Below, in pieces: positions 1,014 to 51,147 of a stretch of 56,283 bases of DNA (position 1 is the stretch's first letter; every line of letters begins with the position of its first letter). The notes beneath the pieces were generated by a model that was not told the DNA's origin, ran no database searches, and saw nothing but the letters and a program-made list of their open reading frames with translations. The DNA lies in contig CAINFC010000258.1 in the NCBI GenBank assembly GCA_903847975.1, forward strand, positions 1 through 56,283. The letters run 5' to 3'. The translations under genes were made by a program, and so were the position numbers. This stretch comes from an uncultured Acidobacteriota bacterium. Its GTDB lineage: Bacteria > Acidobacteriota > UBA6911 > CAINFC01.

Positions 1014-1436
1014 GAGTCGCGTCCGTTACTTGCCCTTCCCTTTAACCCCTTGCGGGGACCGTTCGGGCCTTCCCCTGTTGCCAGGTTGCCATGCCCTCTG
1101 CTGACTTCTGCTGCCCGGTCAGGACTGATCCCTCAGCCCTCAGTCCCGTATTCGGGACAAACAGCAGATCTCCCGAGGTAATTTCGGCCGCCTTCCGCGC
1201 ACAACCGCCGGATTTACAGCCAGCATCCTTGATGGATATAGGCTTCGCAGTCATTAGCCTGCTCGCCTGTTGCCGTCTGCCCCTAATCCGTTTCTTGTCC
1301 ATCGGCTCGCACTTTTGCTCCACGCTTCTTTCCGACCCCGCCTCGCAGCGCGGCCCTTGCGCTTCGCTATGACTTCACCTCCATCAGGGTGTCAAGGGGG
1401 CTTTCACCCCCAAGTTGTCGAACATGCTCGGCACAC
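165..1436 (-). mobile_element. Degraded group II (class C-like) intron, 3' end missing
   Basis: On the minus strand a GTGTGCCG-type intron 5' end begins at about 1436. It follows a 13-bp terminator stem (1443-1473) and its ATTTTA tail. Insertion directly behind rho-independent terminators is the known habit of class C group II introns. The ribozyme 5' part occupies about 1014-1436, and the reverse transcriptase reading frame occupies 165-1013. Homology stops just after the YADD region at about 165. Beyond that, unrelated sequence runs to the window edge, so RT domain 7, the X domain, and ribozyme domains V and VI are absent. The element is therefore immobile. Bases 1-164 hold only a 28-codon minus-strand frame (74-160) that I do not recognise. 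Confidence 0.8.
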
Positions 1437-44375: not shown

Positions 44376-45674
44376 ATGCACAGAAAAATCATTTTTGCCC
44401 TCCTCGTCGGGCTGATTCAATTCGTCCTCCTGCCGCATGCCGGCCCGGTGCTGGCCGCCGGACGGGCGCAGCCGATGCAGGGGCTGGGACGCGGCCTGCG
44501 GGAGTTCGGCATCAAACCCGGCAACTCTCCCCAGGAAAACCGCCGGAGGCTGCAGGAAGCCATCGACTGGGCGGCAGTCCGGGGCGCCGCCATCCTGGTG
44601 GAGCCCTCTGAAGAACCCTATCCGGTGGCCGGCGGGCTGATCCTGCGGCGAAACGCCTCGCTGATCGGCGTGCACGGCCCGACCGGCCGCGGCACGCGGC
44701 ATCCTTCCAAGGCCCAGCCGGTCGGCAGCGTTTTCCGCATCGAGGACGAGTCGCAGCCTTTTCTGACCGTGGAAGGAGCCACGCAGGTGCGCGGCATCCA
44801 GTTCTGGTACCCCCGGCAGACGCGGGACGATCCGGCCCGGATCATCGCCTATCCGGCCACCATACGGGTCTCGCAGGAGGCCCCGGCCCAGGGAGTGACG
44901 CTCTCCTGCCTTACGTTTTACGGAGAATACCTGGCCATGGATTTCAACGCCCGCCGGGAAAAGCCCTGCGAGCAGGTCCTGGTGGAGCACTGCTACGGCT
45001 ATCCGCTCAGCGGGGAGTTTTTCCGGGTGGATTACTGCTACGATATCCCGCGGATCCTGCACTGCCACGTCAATCCGGCCAACCGGCGGTTCATCGACGG
45101 CGGGTACAGCAAGGCGGTGATCGATTCGGTGGTTGCCCGGCGGACCTTCAGCTACGCCATTCAGCACACCGACAACGCCGTGCTCATGGATATCTTCACC
45201 TTCGGGGTGTACGGCGGCGTTCTTCTGGGACCGGCTACCTACGGCCAGCTGACCAGCTTCAACCTGGACTGCGTCACCGTCGGCATCCACAAGCAGGGCG
45301 ACGGGGCCTTCAACCGCAACTGGCAGATAGCCCAGGGCTCCATCATCGCCAATACCGGCGCTTCGCTCGGCGAGATCCATCCGATCCTGATCGAGGGCAT
45401 GGGCCATACCGCGCTTTCCAACGTGGAAGCTTTCTCCGGCGGGAACAGCGCCCTGACCAACCTTCGTCAGTCGCAGGACTTCCTCCTGGTGCGCGGCGAC
45501 CGGCCGCTGACGGTGACCATGACCGGATGCCGGATGCGCAACTATGCGGCCGAGGAGCCTTTGACGATCGAGAACCCCAAGGCCTGGATCCGGGCGCTGG
45601 CCTGCGTCGACAAGAACGAGCGGCTGTACGAAACGGTCATCGGTGCCACCGCCTCCGGAAAGACGGCCCCCTGA
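44376..45674 (+). CDS. Secreted right-handed beta-helix protein
   Basis: The 432-residue protein has a signal peptide (about 1-28). An FGIKPGNSPQENRRRLQEAIDWA segment is typical of pectate-lyase-superfamily beta-helix proteins, and repeated strand-turn units from about 60 to 410 follow. The fold is common in polysaccharide lyases, hydrolases and surface proteins; no catalytic set is recognisable. AAGGAAG precedes the ATG, and it lies 68 bp after the glycoside-hydrolase-like gene, so the three genes from 40352 may act on one polysaccharide. Confidence 0.65.
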   Translation: MHRKIIFALLVGLIQFVLLPHAGPVLAAGRAQPMQGLGRGLREFGIKPGNSPQENRRRLQEAIDWAAVRGAAILVEPSEEPYPVAGGLILRRNASLIGVHGPTGRGTRHPSKAQPVGSVFRIEDESQPFLTVEGATQVRGIQFWYPRQTRDDPARIIAYPATIRVSQEAPAQGVTLSCLTFYGEYLAMDFNARREKPCEQVLVEHCYGYPLSGEFFRVDYCYDIPRILHCHVNPANRRFIDGGYSKAVIDSVVARRTFSYAIQHTDNAVLMDIFTFGVYGGVLLGPATYGQLTSFNLDCVTVGIHKQGDGAFNRNWQIAQGSIIANTGASLGEIHPILIEGMGHTALSNVEAFSGGNSALTNLRQSQDFLLVRGDRPLTVTMTGCRMRNYAAEEPLTIENPKAWIRALACVDKNERLYETVIGATASGKTAP

Positions 45675-45763
45675 ACGTTGACGCTTCCCGGGGCTTTCCC
45701 GGGATCTCCGGTGTTTTTGCCGGGCGATCCTGCCGGATTCAATCGCAAAAAGTCGCACATGAA

Positions 45764-46023
45764 AAGCCCTGCAAGGGCTTCGGATCGCAGCCCGGGGTAG
45801 GCGCGAAGCGCGCCTACCCCGGGTAAGGGGATATTCGGATAGGACAACCCTGCAGGGGTTGCGCAATATCCGGCAATACCAGGTGTTTGCGCAACCCTTG
45901 CAGGGTTGGTTTTTGATAAACCCTCCGACCCGGGGTAGCGCCTATGCGGCGCAACCCCGGGCTGTGTTCCGGAACCCCTTCAGGGTTCCTGCGGTTTATT
46001 GCAAAGCCATCCTGCCGGATGGC
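45764..46023. repeat. Array of distinct palindromes
   Basis: In order: 45764-45780 (AAGCCCT, 3-base loop); 45791-45823 (perfect 15-bp arms, AAG loop); 45845-45861 and 45892-45908 (CAACCC arms); 45929-45961 (14-bp arms, one mismatch); 45971-45989 (GGAACCC arms); 46006-46023 (GCCATCC arms). Arms differ in sequence between units, unlike CRISPR or a simple tandem repeat. Confidence 0.8.
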
Positions 46024-46060
46024 TTCCCAAAAAGTCGGGATTCGATCCGTAACAATCTCC

Positions 46061-46154
46061 CCAACGAAATCCGTTTGGAGTTCAAGCATTAGCTTGCAGG
46101 ACACAAGCGGAATTCCGCTCGCAGCGCGCAGTCTGAAGACTGTACTCAAAACGG
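46061..46154 (+). repeat. 94-bp dispersed repeat, copy 2
   Basis: This is the plus-strand counterpart of 29282-29374. It shares the CCAACGAAATCCGT start, TTAGCTTGC, ACAAGC, GCAGCGCGCAG and CAAAACGG blocks. Confidence 0.75.
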
Positions 46155-46326
46155 CTTTCGTTTGTGAGTTCGTTTTGGGGTGTTTGGGGGACTTTTTGCG
46201 AGATTGTCTTGCCGGATGAAGGTGAAAAAAGAAAATATTGTTACGTTCTATCGTCCCTTACGGGGCTTGCGGGTGCGCCACACGGCGCGAAGTAGCTTTC
46301 GCCGGGCCACCCAACCCGGGCGGCGC

Positions 46327-47763
46327 TCAGCTCTTGCGGCGCCAGAGGTAATAGAACGGGATGCCGGCCAGGGTCAGCAGCAGGCCCGGTAGAGCGTAGG
46401 GGTTCTGCTTTAGCATGGCTAGGCTGATGACGGAAGCGGCCAGGATGTAAATCCCCGGCAGCAGCGGATAGCCGACCGCTTTGTAGGGCCTCTCCATTTC
46501 CGGGCGCTTGCGGCGCAGGATGAACAGCCCGGCCACAGTCAGGACGTAAAAAACCATGACGGCAAACATCACCAGGTCGAGCAGCTCGTTGTACTTGCCG
46601 GAAAGCGCCAGCACGCCGGCCATCAGCACCTGGGCAAACAGCGCTTTGACCGGGGTGTGGAAGCGGGGATGGATGTCCCCGAGCCTCCGGAAAAAGATGC
46701 CGTCTTTCGCCATGGCGTAATAAACGCGGGCGCCGGCCAGGCTGAGGCCGTTGATGCAGCCGAAGGTGCTGCAAAGGATGGCCAGCATGAGGATCCTGCC
46801 CCAGCCCTCTCCGGCCACGGTGCTGATCACCTGCACCCCGAGGGTCAGTGTCTGCGGCTTCTGCTGCTCGTTGAAGGCCATGATCTCCGGCAGCGACATG
46901 ACGTGCAGGTAGCCGAAGTTGGCCAGCAGATACAGGGAGTTGACCAGCAGGGTGCCTATGGCCAGGGCCAGAGGCAGGTTTCGGCTCGGATTTTTCACCT
47001 CTCCGGCAGTGAAGGTGATGTTGTTCCAGGCGTCGGACGAAAAGAGGGAGCCGACCAGGGCTCCGCCGAAAAGAAAGAAAAAAGACAGGGACCACGCGTC
47101 GAGCGCCGGGGAGCCGGCCGGGGGAGCCGCCGACAGGTTAGCCCAGTCTCCCTTGCCGTAGCTGAGAGCCAGGGCGATCAGGCCCAGCACCCCCATGGTT
47201 TTGGCGGTGGTGAAAAAATTCTGGATCACCGCTCCCCAGCGGATCCCCAGACAGTTGACCGCCCCCAGGAACAGGATGACGCCGATGGCGACGATCTGCC
47301 CGCTGGAGAGCTGCCACTTCCAGGCGCCCAGCTGCAGAAGCGTCCACTCGGGCTCCAGGCGGACGAAAGGAACGAAGGCGTTTAAAAACTTGGCAAAAGC
47401 CACCGCCACCGCGGCAATGGTGCCCGTCTGGATGACAAAGAACAGGGTCCATCCATAGAGAAATCCGGCCAGCGGGCCGTAGGCCTCGCGCAGGTAGACG
47501 TACTGCCCCCCGGCATGGGGCATGGCGGCAGCCAGCTCCCCGTAGGCCAGGGCACCCAGAACGGTGACCAGCGCCGACAGCGACCAGGCCGCCAGGAGCC
47601 AGATCGGGGACTGCAGCTTGGCGGCCATATCCGCCGAAACAATAAAGATGCCGGACCCGATCATCGAACCGACCACGATGGCCGTGGCGTCGAACAGCCC
47701 TAGCCCCTTGACCAGGGCCGCCTGCGCCCCGGAGCAACAGCTCTCCCCTTCCTGCCTTTTCAT
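46327..47763 (-). CDS. APC-superfamily amino acid permease
   Basis: The 478-residue protein has 12 membrane helices. TM1 carries the unwound glycine motif GSMIGSGIFIVSAD, TM2-3 include the GALAYGELAAAMPHAGGQYVYLREAYGP block, and TM6 has FGGALVGSLFSSDAWNNITFTAGEVKNPSRN. These match the APC family of amino acid or polyamine exchangers and importers (LAT/BAT-like). The N-terminus carries a CC pair. GGGAGGAAGG immediately precedes ATG 47763. It is monocistronic and convergent with the repeat-rich gap. Confidence 0.93.
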   Translation of the reverse strand: MKRQEGESCCSGAQAALVKGLGLFDATAIVVGSMIGSGIFIVSADMAAKLQSPIWLLAAWSLSALVTVLGALAYGELAAAMPHAGGQYVYLREAYGPLAGFLYGWTLFFVIQTGTIAAVAVAFAKFLNAFVPFVRLEPEWTLLQLGAWKWQLSSGQIVAIGVILFLGAVNCLGIRWGAVIQNFFTTAKTMGVLGLIALALSYGKGDWANLSAAPPAGSPALDAWSLSFFFLFGGALVGSLFSSDAWNNITFTAGEVKNPSRNLPLALAIGTLLVNSLYLLANFGYLHVMSLPEIMAFNEQQKPQTLTLGVQVISTVAGEGWGRILMLAILCSTFGCINGLSLAGARVYYAMAKDGIFFRRLGDIHPRFHTPVKALFAQVLMAGVLALSGKYNELLDLVMFAVMVFYVLTVAGLFILRRKRPEMERPYKAVGYPLLPGIYILAASVISLAMLKQNPYALPGLLLTLAGIPFYYLWRRKS

Positions 47764-47917: not shown

Positions 47918-47994
47918 CCTCACGTTTTGTGCACGGCAATAAGTATCCTTACGGGGATAGTGTCGATACTATTTTTTATCCAAGGAGAGCAGTT

Positions 47995-50900
47995 ATGACC
48001 AATTCCAGAAGCAAACTTCTGCTTCTTTTAGCGATGCTTCTGCTGGGCGGCAGCGCTTTCGCCCAAACGGTAACCAACGGGGCCATTACCGGTTCCGTCA
48101 TCGACCCGCAAAAGGCGGTGATTCCGGGAGCCTCCATTGTGGCCACGCACGTGGAGACCGGCACGGCCTACGAGGCGGTTACCCAGGAAGACGGACGCTT
48201 TTCCATTATCGGAGTCCGAATCGGCTCTTACAACATCAAAGCCAGCATGGGCAAATTCCAGGCCCAGGAAAAAAGCAACATTAACGTCGGCCTGGGCGAA
48301 ACCCAGGACGTCAGCTTCGTGCTGCAGATAGAAGGGCTGAGCGAAACGGTGACCGTCACCGCCGAGGCCCAGATTTTCGATCTGTCCCGCGCCGGAACGG
48401 CCTCCAATGTTCCCACGCGAACAATTGAAGAGCTGCCCACCATTCAGCGCAGCATCAACGATTTTGCGCGCACCTCCCCGCACTTCAACACCAATACCGA
48501 CAGCGCCGGGGGTTCCGACATGATCAGCGTCGCCGGGCGCAACAACCGCTACAACAACATGCAGATCGACGGCGCGGTCAACAACGATGTGTTCGGCCTG
48601 GCATCCAGCGGTACGCCGGGCGGCCAGACCGGCACCCAGCCGGTCAGCCTCGATGCCATCCAGGAAATCCAGCTGGTAGTCTCCCCCTATGACGTGCGGC
48701 AGGGCGGATTTTCCGGCGGCAGCATCAACGCGGTCACCAAGAGCGGCTCCAATGCCTTCCACGGCACCGGCTACTACTTCGGCCGCAACCAGAAGTTCGT
48801 CAACTCCATCCCCAGCATCGTCACCGTGGCCAATCCCACGGCGGTGGACACCAAAGTCGGCCCCTTTTCCGACAAACAGGGCGGATTCAGCCTCGGCGGA
48901 CCGATCGTCAAGAACAAGCTGTTCTTCTTCACCAACCTGGACTGGGCCCGCAAAACGACTCCCACCGGCTACTCCATCGACGGCAGCTCCGGGCAGAAGT
49001 TCGACAACGCCGCCAACATCCAGCCGATTCTCGATTACGTCAAATCGAAGTACGGCTACGACCCGGGAGGCACGGGGGAATTCGGAAGGCCGAACAACGC
49101 CAACAAGTTTTTCGTGCGCGGCGACTACAACATCAGCTCCCGCCACCAGCTGGTGTTCCGCACCAACTACGTGGACGGGCTTGCCTACGTGGGAATTCAG
49201 TACAACAACGCCTACAAAATGCCGGGCAATTTTTACAGCATCCAGGACAAGATGCTCTCCAACGTGGCCCAGCTGAACAGCACGGTAGGTACCACCATGT
49301 TCAACGAGCTGCGCTTCACCTACCAGCGGGAGCGCAACGTCCGCGGCGATCAGGCAGGCTACAAGGCTTTCCCGGAAGTCCGCGTGGATCTTCCCAGCGG
49401 CAACTATATCCAGTTCGGGACCGAGTACTCCTCGCACGCCAACAAGCTCAACCAGGATATCATCGAAATCACCGACGATCTGACCTGGATCAAGGGTTCG
49501 CATACCTTTTCGTTCGGAACCCACAACGAGTTCTACAAGTTCTACAATCTGTTCATCCAGTACCTGTACGGAGGGTACCGTTTTTCCAGCCAGGCCAATT
49601 TCCAGGCCGGCCTGGCCCAGTCCTACAACCACAACTTTTCCAACACCTCCAATCCCAACGAGGCGGCCAACTTCCCGGTCCGACAGTTCGGGCTCTATGC
49701 CGGGGACAAGTGGAGGGCCAAAAGAAATCTGACCCTGACCTACGGCATCCGCGTGGATATCCCCCGCTTCCCGGACAAGCCGCGCGCCAACCCGGTGGCG
49801 GTGACCGACTTCAACTTGAGAACCGATGTCGTTCCCGCGCCGACCATGTGGTCTCCGCGCTTCGGCTTCAACTGGGACCCGAGCCAGGGTCGCAGCAAGC
49901 GCCTCCAGGTTCGCGGGGGCGTAGGCATCTTCTCCGGCCGGACTCCTTATGTGTGGCTTTCCAACCAGTACTCCAACACCGGTATGGATTTCACCAGCCT
50001 TTCGGTTTCCTATAACGCCAACAACAAGATCCCCTTTGTCGCCGATCCGTTCAACCAGCCCAATACGGTGACCGGCGGAACCACCGGGCGGCAGACCATC
50101 AACCTGATCGATCCGGATTATCACTACCCGACCATCCTGCGGACCAACGCCGCCTTCGACCATACCCTGCCTTTCTTCGGCCTGATCGGCAGCGCCGAAC
50201 TGGTTTACACCAAGAACATCAAGGAGATCAGCTACGCCAACATCAACTACGTGCCCCTCAGCAAGCTGCCCGACGGTCGGAACACCTACAAGAAGTTCGA
50301 CGCCAATCTGAACGACGTCATGTTGCTTTCGAACACCTCCAAGGGCCGCTCCTGGTCGATCAGCTACAAAGTGGAGCGCCCCTTCCGCAACCGGCTCTAC
50401 CTGAGCGGCTCCTACCTTTTCAACCGCGCTTACTCGGTCAACGACGGAACCTCCAGCGTGGCCCGCTCCAACTGGACCGGGACCCCGATCGGCCTGGACA
50501 CCAACAATCCGCCGCTGACCCGCTCCCGCTATGAAGTGGGAAGCCGCGTCAACCTGGCGGCCACGCTGCCGATCCGGATGCCCTGGCACATGAGCAGCAG
50601 GGTGTCGATGTTCTACAACGGCCAGCAGGGCTTCCCCTACTCCCTGATCTTCAACGGCGATGCCAATACGGACAGCATTACCAGCAATGACCTGCTTTAC
50701 GTCCCCAACAACAGCAGCGAGGTCTCGGTGTACAGCTCGGTCAGCGGACAGGCGGTCACCTACGACATGCTGGATAAATACCTGACCTCGCTCGGGGCCG
50801 ACAAGTACCGGGGGCAGATCCTGCCGCGCATGTTCAACCACGCCAAGTGGTACAACCAGATGGATGTCCGCTACGCCCTGACGATTCCCGCTTTCCGGGA

Positions 50901-51147
50901 AACCCGGTTCGAGGTCACGGTGGATGTATTCAACTTCCTGAACCTGCTGAACAGCAAGTGGGGCTGGCAGAATTTCGGCGGCTTCCCGGGAATCGGCCAG
51001 ATCGGATACGGCGGCCTGGATGCTACCACCGGAAAGATGCGCTACAACCTGGCAACTCTTGCCTCAACCACCTACCAGGGACCATTCACCCGCGACGACC
51101 TGCGCTCCCGGGCGCAGGCCCAGCTCGGCATCCGCTACCGCTTCTAG
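47995..51147 (+). CDS. Oar-type TonB-dependent receptor with carboxypeptidase-regulatory-like domain
   Basis: The product is 1050 residues from ATG 47995 (AAGGAGAG upstream). It has a signal peptide (about 1-24), a CarboxypepD_reg-like domain (about 26-115), a plug (about 130-255; SVAGRNNRYNNMQIDGAVNND) and a large barrel ending in LGIRYRF. It is more similar to Myxococcus Oar-like proteins than the 25.4-kb receptor by its plug (NNDVFGLASSGTPGGQTGTQP). Its substrate is unknown; adjacent genes do not suggest one. A strong terminator follows. Confidence 0.92.
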   Translation: MTNSRSKLLLLLAMLLLGGSAFAQTVTNGAITGSVIDPQKAVIPGASIVATHVETGTAYEAVTQEDGRFSIIGVRIGSYNIKASMGKFQAQEKSNINVGLGETQDVSFVLQIEGLSETVTVTAEAQIFDLSRAGTASNVPTRTIEELPTIQRSINDFARTSPHFNTNTDSAGGSDMISVAGRNNRYNNMQIDGAVNNDVFGLASSGTPGGQTGTQPVSLDAIQEIQLVVSPYDVRQGGFSGGSINAVTKSGSNAFHGTGYYFGRNQKFVNSIPSIVTVANPTAVDTKVGPFSDKQGGFSLGGPIVKNKLFFFTNLDWARKTTPTGYSIDGSSGQKFDNAANIQPILDYVKSKYGYDPGGTGEFGRPNNANKFFVRGDYNISSRHQLVFRTNYVDGLAYVGIQYNNAYKMPGNFYSIQDKMLSNVAQLNSTVGTTMFNELRFTYQRERNVRGDQAGYKAFPEVRVDLPSGNYIQFGTEYSSHANKLNQDIIEITDDLTWIKGSHTFSFGTHNEFYKFYNLFIQYLYGGYRFSSQANFQAGLAQSYNHNFSNTSNPNEAANFPVRQFGLYAGDKWRAKRNLTLTYGIRVDIPRFPDKPRANPVAVTDFNLRTDVVPAPTMWSPRFGFNWDPSQGRSKRLQVRGGVGIFSGRTPYVWLSNQYSNTGMDFTSLSVSYNANNKIPFVADPFNQPNTVTGGTTGRQTINLIDPDYHYPTILRTNAAFDHTLPFFGLIGSAELVYTKNIKEISYANINYVPLSKLPDGRNTYKKFDANLNDVMLLSNTSKGRSWSISYKVERPFRNRLYLSGSYLFNRAYSVNDGTSSVARSNWTGTPIGLDTNNPPLTRSRYEVGSRVNLAATLPIRMPWHMSSRVSMFYNGQQGFPYSLIFNGDANTDSITSNDLLYVPNNSSEVSVYSSVSGQAVTYDMLDKYLTSLGADKYRGQILPRMFNHAKWYNQMDVRYALTIPAFRETRFEVTVDVFNFLNLLNSKWGWQNFGGFPGIGQIGYGGLDATTGKMRYNLATLASTTYQGPFTRDDLRSRAQAQLGIRYRF

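Follow-up and report, generated by a model that had tools for sequence, protein, structure and literature searches.

The window analysed here spans positions 1 to 56,283 of contig CAINFC010000258.1 (assembly GCA_903847975.1) from an uncultured Acidobacteriota bacterium, and it holds a dense cluster of palindromes at 45764-46023, whose core lies between two converging open reading frames (ORFs) at 44376-45674 (+) and 46327-47763 (-). The original prediction described this cluster as seven different palindromes. Seven palindromes do occupy the region, but they are not seven different ones: the first six make up two inverted three-palindrome halves, and the seventh (46006-46023) belongs to an inverted-repeat element that encloses them. 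The core, about 225 bp long, consists of a short-long-short series of hairpins (S-L-S), a spacer, and an inverted S-L-S, each half being like a repetitive extragenic palindromic (REP) sequence.

45764..45780: outer short palindrome S (AAGCCC-TGCAA-GGGCTT)
45791..45823: long hairpin L, with perfect 15-bp arms and GGGTAG inside
45845..45861: inner short palindrome S of the first half
45764..45861, minus strand: first S-L-S half unit (REP-like), read from inner to outer on that strand; row 2 of the covariation alignment A4 described below
45892..45908: inner short palindrome S of the second half
45929..45961: long hairpin L of the second half
45971..45989: outer short palindrome S (GGAACCC-CTTCA-GGGTTCC)
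45892..45989, plus strand: second S-L-S half unit (REP-like), inverted relative to the first

The two halves are related in sequence as well as in layout, with 45767-45824 pairing with 45928-45985 at 72% and the element matching its own reverse complement at 71%. As a single strand, the segment 45680-46040 is predicted to fold at -211.6 kcal/mol, compared with -146.5 kcal/mol for dinucleotide shuffles (z = -11.0), none of 100 shuffles being as strong. A covariance model of the half unit (R1) matches 45892-45988 with an E value of 5.7e-16, the sequence itself being part of the model.

The same arrangement recurs throughout the genome from which the window derives (8.13 Mb in 326 contigs, 99% complete). 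A search with 45760-46040 returned 90 matches, and at least 41 places, the window's included, span about 210 bases or more with the units in the same order; this count is a lower bound, 40 of the 266 candidates having been scored. Near-full copies other than that of the window are 79-87% identical to it, and the S-L-S, spacer, S-L-S order is kept in all 42 full copies that were oriented and aligned. Units occurring singly and without conserved order, the outcome named beforehand as counting against an organized array, are thus not what is seen for the core, and relatives of the organism keep the architecture as well. The L-arm motif is found at 338 sites in the genome, against 25 for a reversed control. 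Copies are spread across many contigs with differing flanks, and neighbouring copies are present on two of them (C78 and C230). The genes beside the 34 copies with enough flanking DNA are arranged in tandem in 21 cases, divergently in seven and convergently in six, proportions that resemble the background of that DNA, and simple ORF calls place 23 of the 34 clear of any ORF longer than 150 amino acids and 11 in overlap with one. The core is accordingly a high-copy, extragenic palindromic repeat. Complementarity between the inner loops, exact in 17 of the 42 copies versus 8.8 by permutation (p 0.0009, kinship being ignored and one row being a regular-expression artefact), provides weak evidence.

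Similar units can be recognized in other genomes. Among 60 genomes searched, including that of the window, matches were obtained in three relatives of the same class (G004, G015 and G027), which display the same architecture in different sequence, or half units. A broader scan of named genomes, with a pattern limited to the inner S plus the beginning of L, leaving out the outer S, yielded at least 106 stretches in Verrucomicrobiota, Planctomycetota, Acidobacteriota, Bacteroidota, Nitrospinota, Armatimonadota, Hydrogenedentota and Odyssella. In 61 of the 76 units L is followed by an outer stem of at least 6 bp; such a stem was obtained from 35 of 1520 segments after shuffling and from 12 of 76 taken 90 nt farther along. 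In nearly all units that have the stem, it is placed 7-9 nt past L. Inverted (-,+) pairs of units are also found in G002, G004, G060 and G106, matching the configuration of the window's core, in which two REPs are inverted as one unit.

Base-pairing in these units is supported by covariation. Alignment A4 comprises 51 half units, 12 from the window's genome and 39 from pattern loci, with rows chosen for spread from 79 distinct units that show all three hairpins; since an outer hairpin was a condition for inclusion, the alignment is biased towards it, and the unselected figure is the 61 of 76 given above. For the pattern loci, the inner S is likewise set by the selection and so is little informative. 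Changes on both sides occur at 14 of 25 pairs, 95.9% of cells are paired as opposed to 82.9% after shuffling, and 158 cells are changed on both sides against 47.3; both the percentage paired and the covariation score were lower in every shuffle and every slide. In most rows GGGTAG stands at the foot of the inner part of L, yet inside the outer stem, and some rows have GTTG.

Single units also reside next to genes for Y1 (HUH) transposases. When a profile from 20 Y1_Tnp pieces was run against the loci of the pattern scan, 16 hits were obtained in 14 of the 106 listed, and 15 of these hits are no more than about 0.6 kb away from a unit (the exception being L189:363-1391), while 14 display a Y---Q--HH signature. 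Nine such proteins (9 of 9 with the motif), all from loci selected for units, formed alignment A2, which was searched in 199 Acidobacteriota genomes, with R1 searched in an equal number drawn in the same way. The transposase is present in 44 of these genomes, units in 27 and both in 20, so that it accompanies 20 of the 27 unit-positive genomes but only 24 of the 172 unit-negative ones (Fisher p 4e-10, with kinship ignored). The association also holds from the protein side, in 30 loci returned by the protein search and chosen by the protein alone rather than by units. In 11 of them the gene has inverted units to either side (L245, L250, L251, L254, L256, L261, L262, L268, L270, L273 and L274; R1, E < 0.001), and in five others a unit stands on one side (L246, L252, L258, L267 and L269; E < 0.001), giving 16 of 30 with at least one flanking unit, compared with 0 of 29 control IS1182 loci of the same class. 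The R1 match at L263 is weak (E 0.011), and at L249 and L260 units occur in other arrangements. In relatives, therefore, repeats of the type that makes up the window's core flank a Y1 gene.

Two of these genomes deserve separate mention. At L262 (G016:C23) the unit-flanked transposase gene contains two stops and is a decaying copy. G015 carries at least 20 unit matches, many equal in score, together with a transposase gene flanked by units (L025, L250), and the system there is possibly still active.

In the window's genome most cores examined are enclosed by a second element. Flanking them on the outside is GAT-N6-GCAAAAAG, where N6 denotes six variable bases, with its inverse on the other side, so that terminal inverted repeats (TIRs) bound both ends, as they do in miniature inverted-repeat transposable elements (MITEs). 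At a threshold of nine or more of the 11 fixed bases, the TIR is recognized on the left of 30 of 42 copies and on the right of 29 of 40, versus 1.5% of random windows. The corresponding features of the window are as follows.

45713..45752: junction 1, comprising a right-TIR-like half, the 6-nt loop CTGCCG, and the left TIR GATTCAATCGCAAAAAG at 45736-45752
45727..45738: ATCCTGCCGGAT, 12 bp duplicated in direct orientation (left copy)
45736..46011, minus strand (canonical orientation): whole TIR-bounded, MITE-like unit of 276 bp, holding the six-palindrome core
45995..46034: junction 2, comprising the right TIR (45995-46011), the loop CTGCCG and the left TIR of the next module; it contains the seventh palindrome
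46009..46020: the same 12 bp, ATCCTGCCGGAT, on the right
46018..46208: a second module, of 191 bp, likewise bounded by TIRs, standing in tandem and holding other cargo; the loop of its far junction, TTGCCG, is the same at five of six positions

Just outside the TIRs, a hexamer is duplicated. Its two sides match at five or six positions in 13 of 29 copies, against 0.57 expected from cross pairs, and the mean identity of 3.62 positions, versus 1.78, was reached in none of 10,000 permutations. This test covers the 29 copies with both TIRs (of the 41 with readable slots, 12 were set aside because a repeat was weak, and the remaining copy of the 42 has no slot), and off-register duplications in L017, L070, L072 and L075 were scored as misses. 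A looser test on the longest shared word in 39 copies came out barely above cross pairs, and the anchored hexamer test was used instead. In the window itself the duplication extends to the 12 bp of ATCCTGCCGGAT, identical at both sides. Target-site duplication is thus a second feature shared with MITEs.

The same ends delimit several types of cargo, and GATGGCTTCGCAAAAAGTC occurs 235 times at up to three mismatches, compared with six control sites. Within about 0.98 Mb of stretches chosen for these repeats, a hexamer is common to 53 of 143 inverted TIR pairs lying 60-500 bp apart, as opposed to 2 of 117 and 2 of 241 at larger distances; where complete junctions follow one another, 11 of 14 have it in common. 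Modules are therefore set in tandem with one array-specific loop, as in the window, where the three junction loops are CTGCCG, CTGCCG and TTGCCG. Tyrosine-recombinase sites and integron attC sites, with their arm-core-arm layout, were also considered as possible readings of the junctions. Cargo like that of 46018-46208 also resides beside other copies (in the flanks of L013 and L086). Contigs of this genome often terminate within TIR modules (e.g., C59, C77, C289 and C308), and for this reason copy numbers are probably underestimated. The suggestion that the cluster is a composite of several palindromic repeat families thus came close; more precisely, it is a REPIN-like repeat (a REPIN being a REP doublet forming hairpin) in a TIR element, beside a second module.

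A candidate parent of the enclosing unit is a broken element of the IS1182 family at C220:14445-16328, in which the same TIRs surround a transposase matching NF033551 with an E value of 3.4e-25 for the longer of its pieces, a score under the curated cut-off. The search for IS1182 loci in the class recovered this element as well. A search for an autonomous insertion sequence with the same TIRs returned five DDE_Tnp_1 hits in the window's genome, and a TIR-like pair was seen around the C220 gene alone. No TIR-like pair was found outside this genome at IS1182 loci of the class, in which 14 of 38 genomes are positive. The IS1182 copies of G036 have the ends TAGCAGCCCGTGGCAAAAGTCC, with GCAAAAGTC as the only part in common with the window's TIRs.

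The explanation that we favour, with a probability of roughly 0.8, is that the core at 45764-45989 is a mobile repeat of REPIN-like, non-autonomous type that later spread, probably, as a MITE moved by a DDE transposase. The architecture, the copy number, the covariation, the association with transposase genes, the TIRs and the duplications are directly observed; the enzyme that moved the repeat and the single-strand mechanism are inferred. Because single units flank Y1 (HUH) genes, the core resembles the two ends of a REP/transposase element from which the gene is missing, and because most cores examined lie within GAT-N6-GCAAAAAG repeats with a short target duplication, the later spread was probably MITE-like. 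The hairpins would fold as single-stranded DNA during replication, and a Y1 (HUH) transposase of the Y---Q--HH type would cut and rejoin at the folded structures; unit pairs without a gene could be copied in trans by such an enzyme. The cognate transposase would since have been lost from the window's genome, and subsequent movement, as a MITE of about 280 bp, would presumably have relied on a DDE enzyme. The designation is kept at "REPIN-like" because the cognate gene is missing here and the guide tetranucleotide appears to lie outside its canonical place.

Several findings weigh against this explanation. No cognate transposase is found in the window's genome, which is 99% complete: PF01797 and the A2 profile match only a truncated IS200 TnpA, a remnant of 81 amino acids that is the sole Y1 match (L021 1471-1716, in G000:C107) and that scores E 0.73 with A2, and the presence of a cognate gene was rejected on this basis. 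Present mobility by a Y1 route is therefore excluded unless the gene lies in an assembly gap. Units without the transposase also occur in seven of the 27 unit-positive genomes (G000, which is the window's own, G004, G009, G014, G017, G018 and G048), and of the 30 loci chosen by protein, 14 lack a unit where one would be expected at a threshold of E 0.001 (13 do so with E 0.05), including 11 with no units at all at E 0.05. Y1 elements are not known to leave a target duplication, and so the duplications require a second mobile element. The proposed parent of that element has two stops, is present in a single copy and has unequal flanking hexamers, and no target duplication was seen at the IS1182 copies of G036. 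Finally, the relatives searched include no genome of the same genus or family, nor was there an empty site for comparison.

These points lend force to the strongest alternative, which we rate at somewhat under even odds: a plain composite palindromic MITE, in which the whole 276-bp TIR unit was spread by an IS1182-like DDE transposase and the S-L-S units are cargo whose older likeness is irrelevant. The TIRs and target duplications, the shared ends of tandem modules with other cargo, the lack of a cognate Y1 gene, the same ends on the C220 element and the GCAAAAGTC shared with G036 all agree with it. However, S-L-S pairs elsewhere have other flanks and adjoin Y1 genes, which argues that the core was not made by the MITE. 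For the recent history within this genome, the plain MITE and the favoured REPIN-like explanation largely agree. Maintenance of the repeats by ordinary recombination or duplication without a transposase is improbable; adjacent copies on C78 and C230 are compatible with it, as is the 79-87% identity of the copies, because of which none is shown to be recent, but the many contigs and different flanks, the duplicated hexamers and the boundaries at TIRs count against it. Least probable of all is the original prediction's unusual structured RNA or, alternatively, a group of transcription terminators between convergent genes, retained for its fold, which would suit the converging ORFs, the very strong fold and the covarying pairs but conflicts with insertion as indicated by the target duplications, with the near-symmetry of the element on both strands, with the occurrence of intergenic copies in every gene orientation, on which a terminator role was rejected, and with the lack of any Rfam family in the hairpin region at gathering thresholds.

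Comparisons with known systems can be made for both layers of the element. REPs and REPINs with their RAYT (TnpA_REP) transposases, including REPtrons (PMC6006769), are high-copy short extragenic palindromes occurring in inverted pairs, with the same repeat on either side of a Y1 gene, as is the case here. They differ in that a REP is one hairpin of 21-65 nt with a GT[AG]G foot at its 5′ side, whereas the present unit has three hairpins over roughly 85-115 nt, with GTAG or GTTG embedded in the L stem; the window's genome also has no transposase gene. PMC6006769 also describes TnpA_Y1 subclass 1.2 as having the Y---Q--HH signature and an IS200-like core, generally without typical terminal structures, whereas the Y---Q--HH genes of Verrucomicrobiota and Acidobacteriota considered here, assigned by motif alone, are flanked by S-L-S units. 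TIRtrons (TIRYT; PMC3733652) likewise comprise Y1 genes, some acidobacterial, flanked by long inverted repeats that are sometimes self-complementary and dispersed in dimers. Their stated GGGGWSAS motif is unlike the L arm by eye, but some of their TIRs may be identical with S-L-S. The literature searches made found no description of the three-hairpin unit, although Figure 9 of PMC3733652, on TIRtrons, may include relatives. A search with words of the units gave, among the papers listed, none titled on such bacterial repeats.

With MITEs the enclosing unit shares TIRs, target duplication, independence of a coding frame and many copies, but its cargo is itself a repeat from another mobile system. 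The C220 relative, carrying the same TIRs, would tie it to the IS1182 family. A member of that family, IS1272, targets inverted repeats in a stem-loop-replacing transposition, and the model in PMC5678879 lists loop-only duplication as a possible path, which may fit the junctions seen here. IS1272 is described in that paper as making no target duplication, in contrast to the 6-12 bp duplicated here and the loop hexamer shared by tandem modules.

Elsewhere in the window, 47929-51147 (+) is an ORF of 1072 amino acids, which from its appearance we take to be an outer-membrane TonB-dependent-like protein, and two matches to domains of group II introns lie at 1066-1352 (-), RF02001 (105 bits) and RF01998 (42.5 bits).

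It seems possible, as a tentative proposal that we hold at a little less than an even chance, that three-hairpin REPs found across phyla are the missing DNA partner of Y---Q--HH (subclass 1.2-like) Y1 transposases, and that in this genome REPINs ride on IS1182-like MITEs, which would use hairpin loops as insertion sites, make a second copy of the loop and stack in tandem with the same loop. The present results supply a repeat partner for a branch of Y1 transposases characterized in PMC6006769 as generally without terminal structures. They also account for some, at the least, of the palindrome-rich DNA between genes in several phyla, and G015, with its gene and many equal-score units, makes the system look testable. 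The window's element, in turn, is a case of one mobile repeat apparently taken over by the ends of another.
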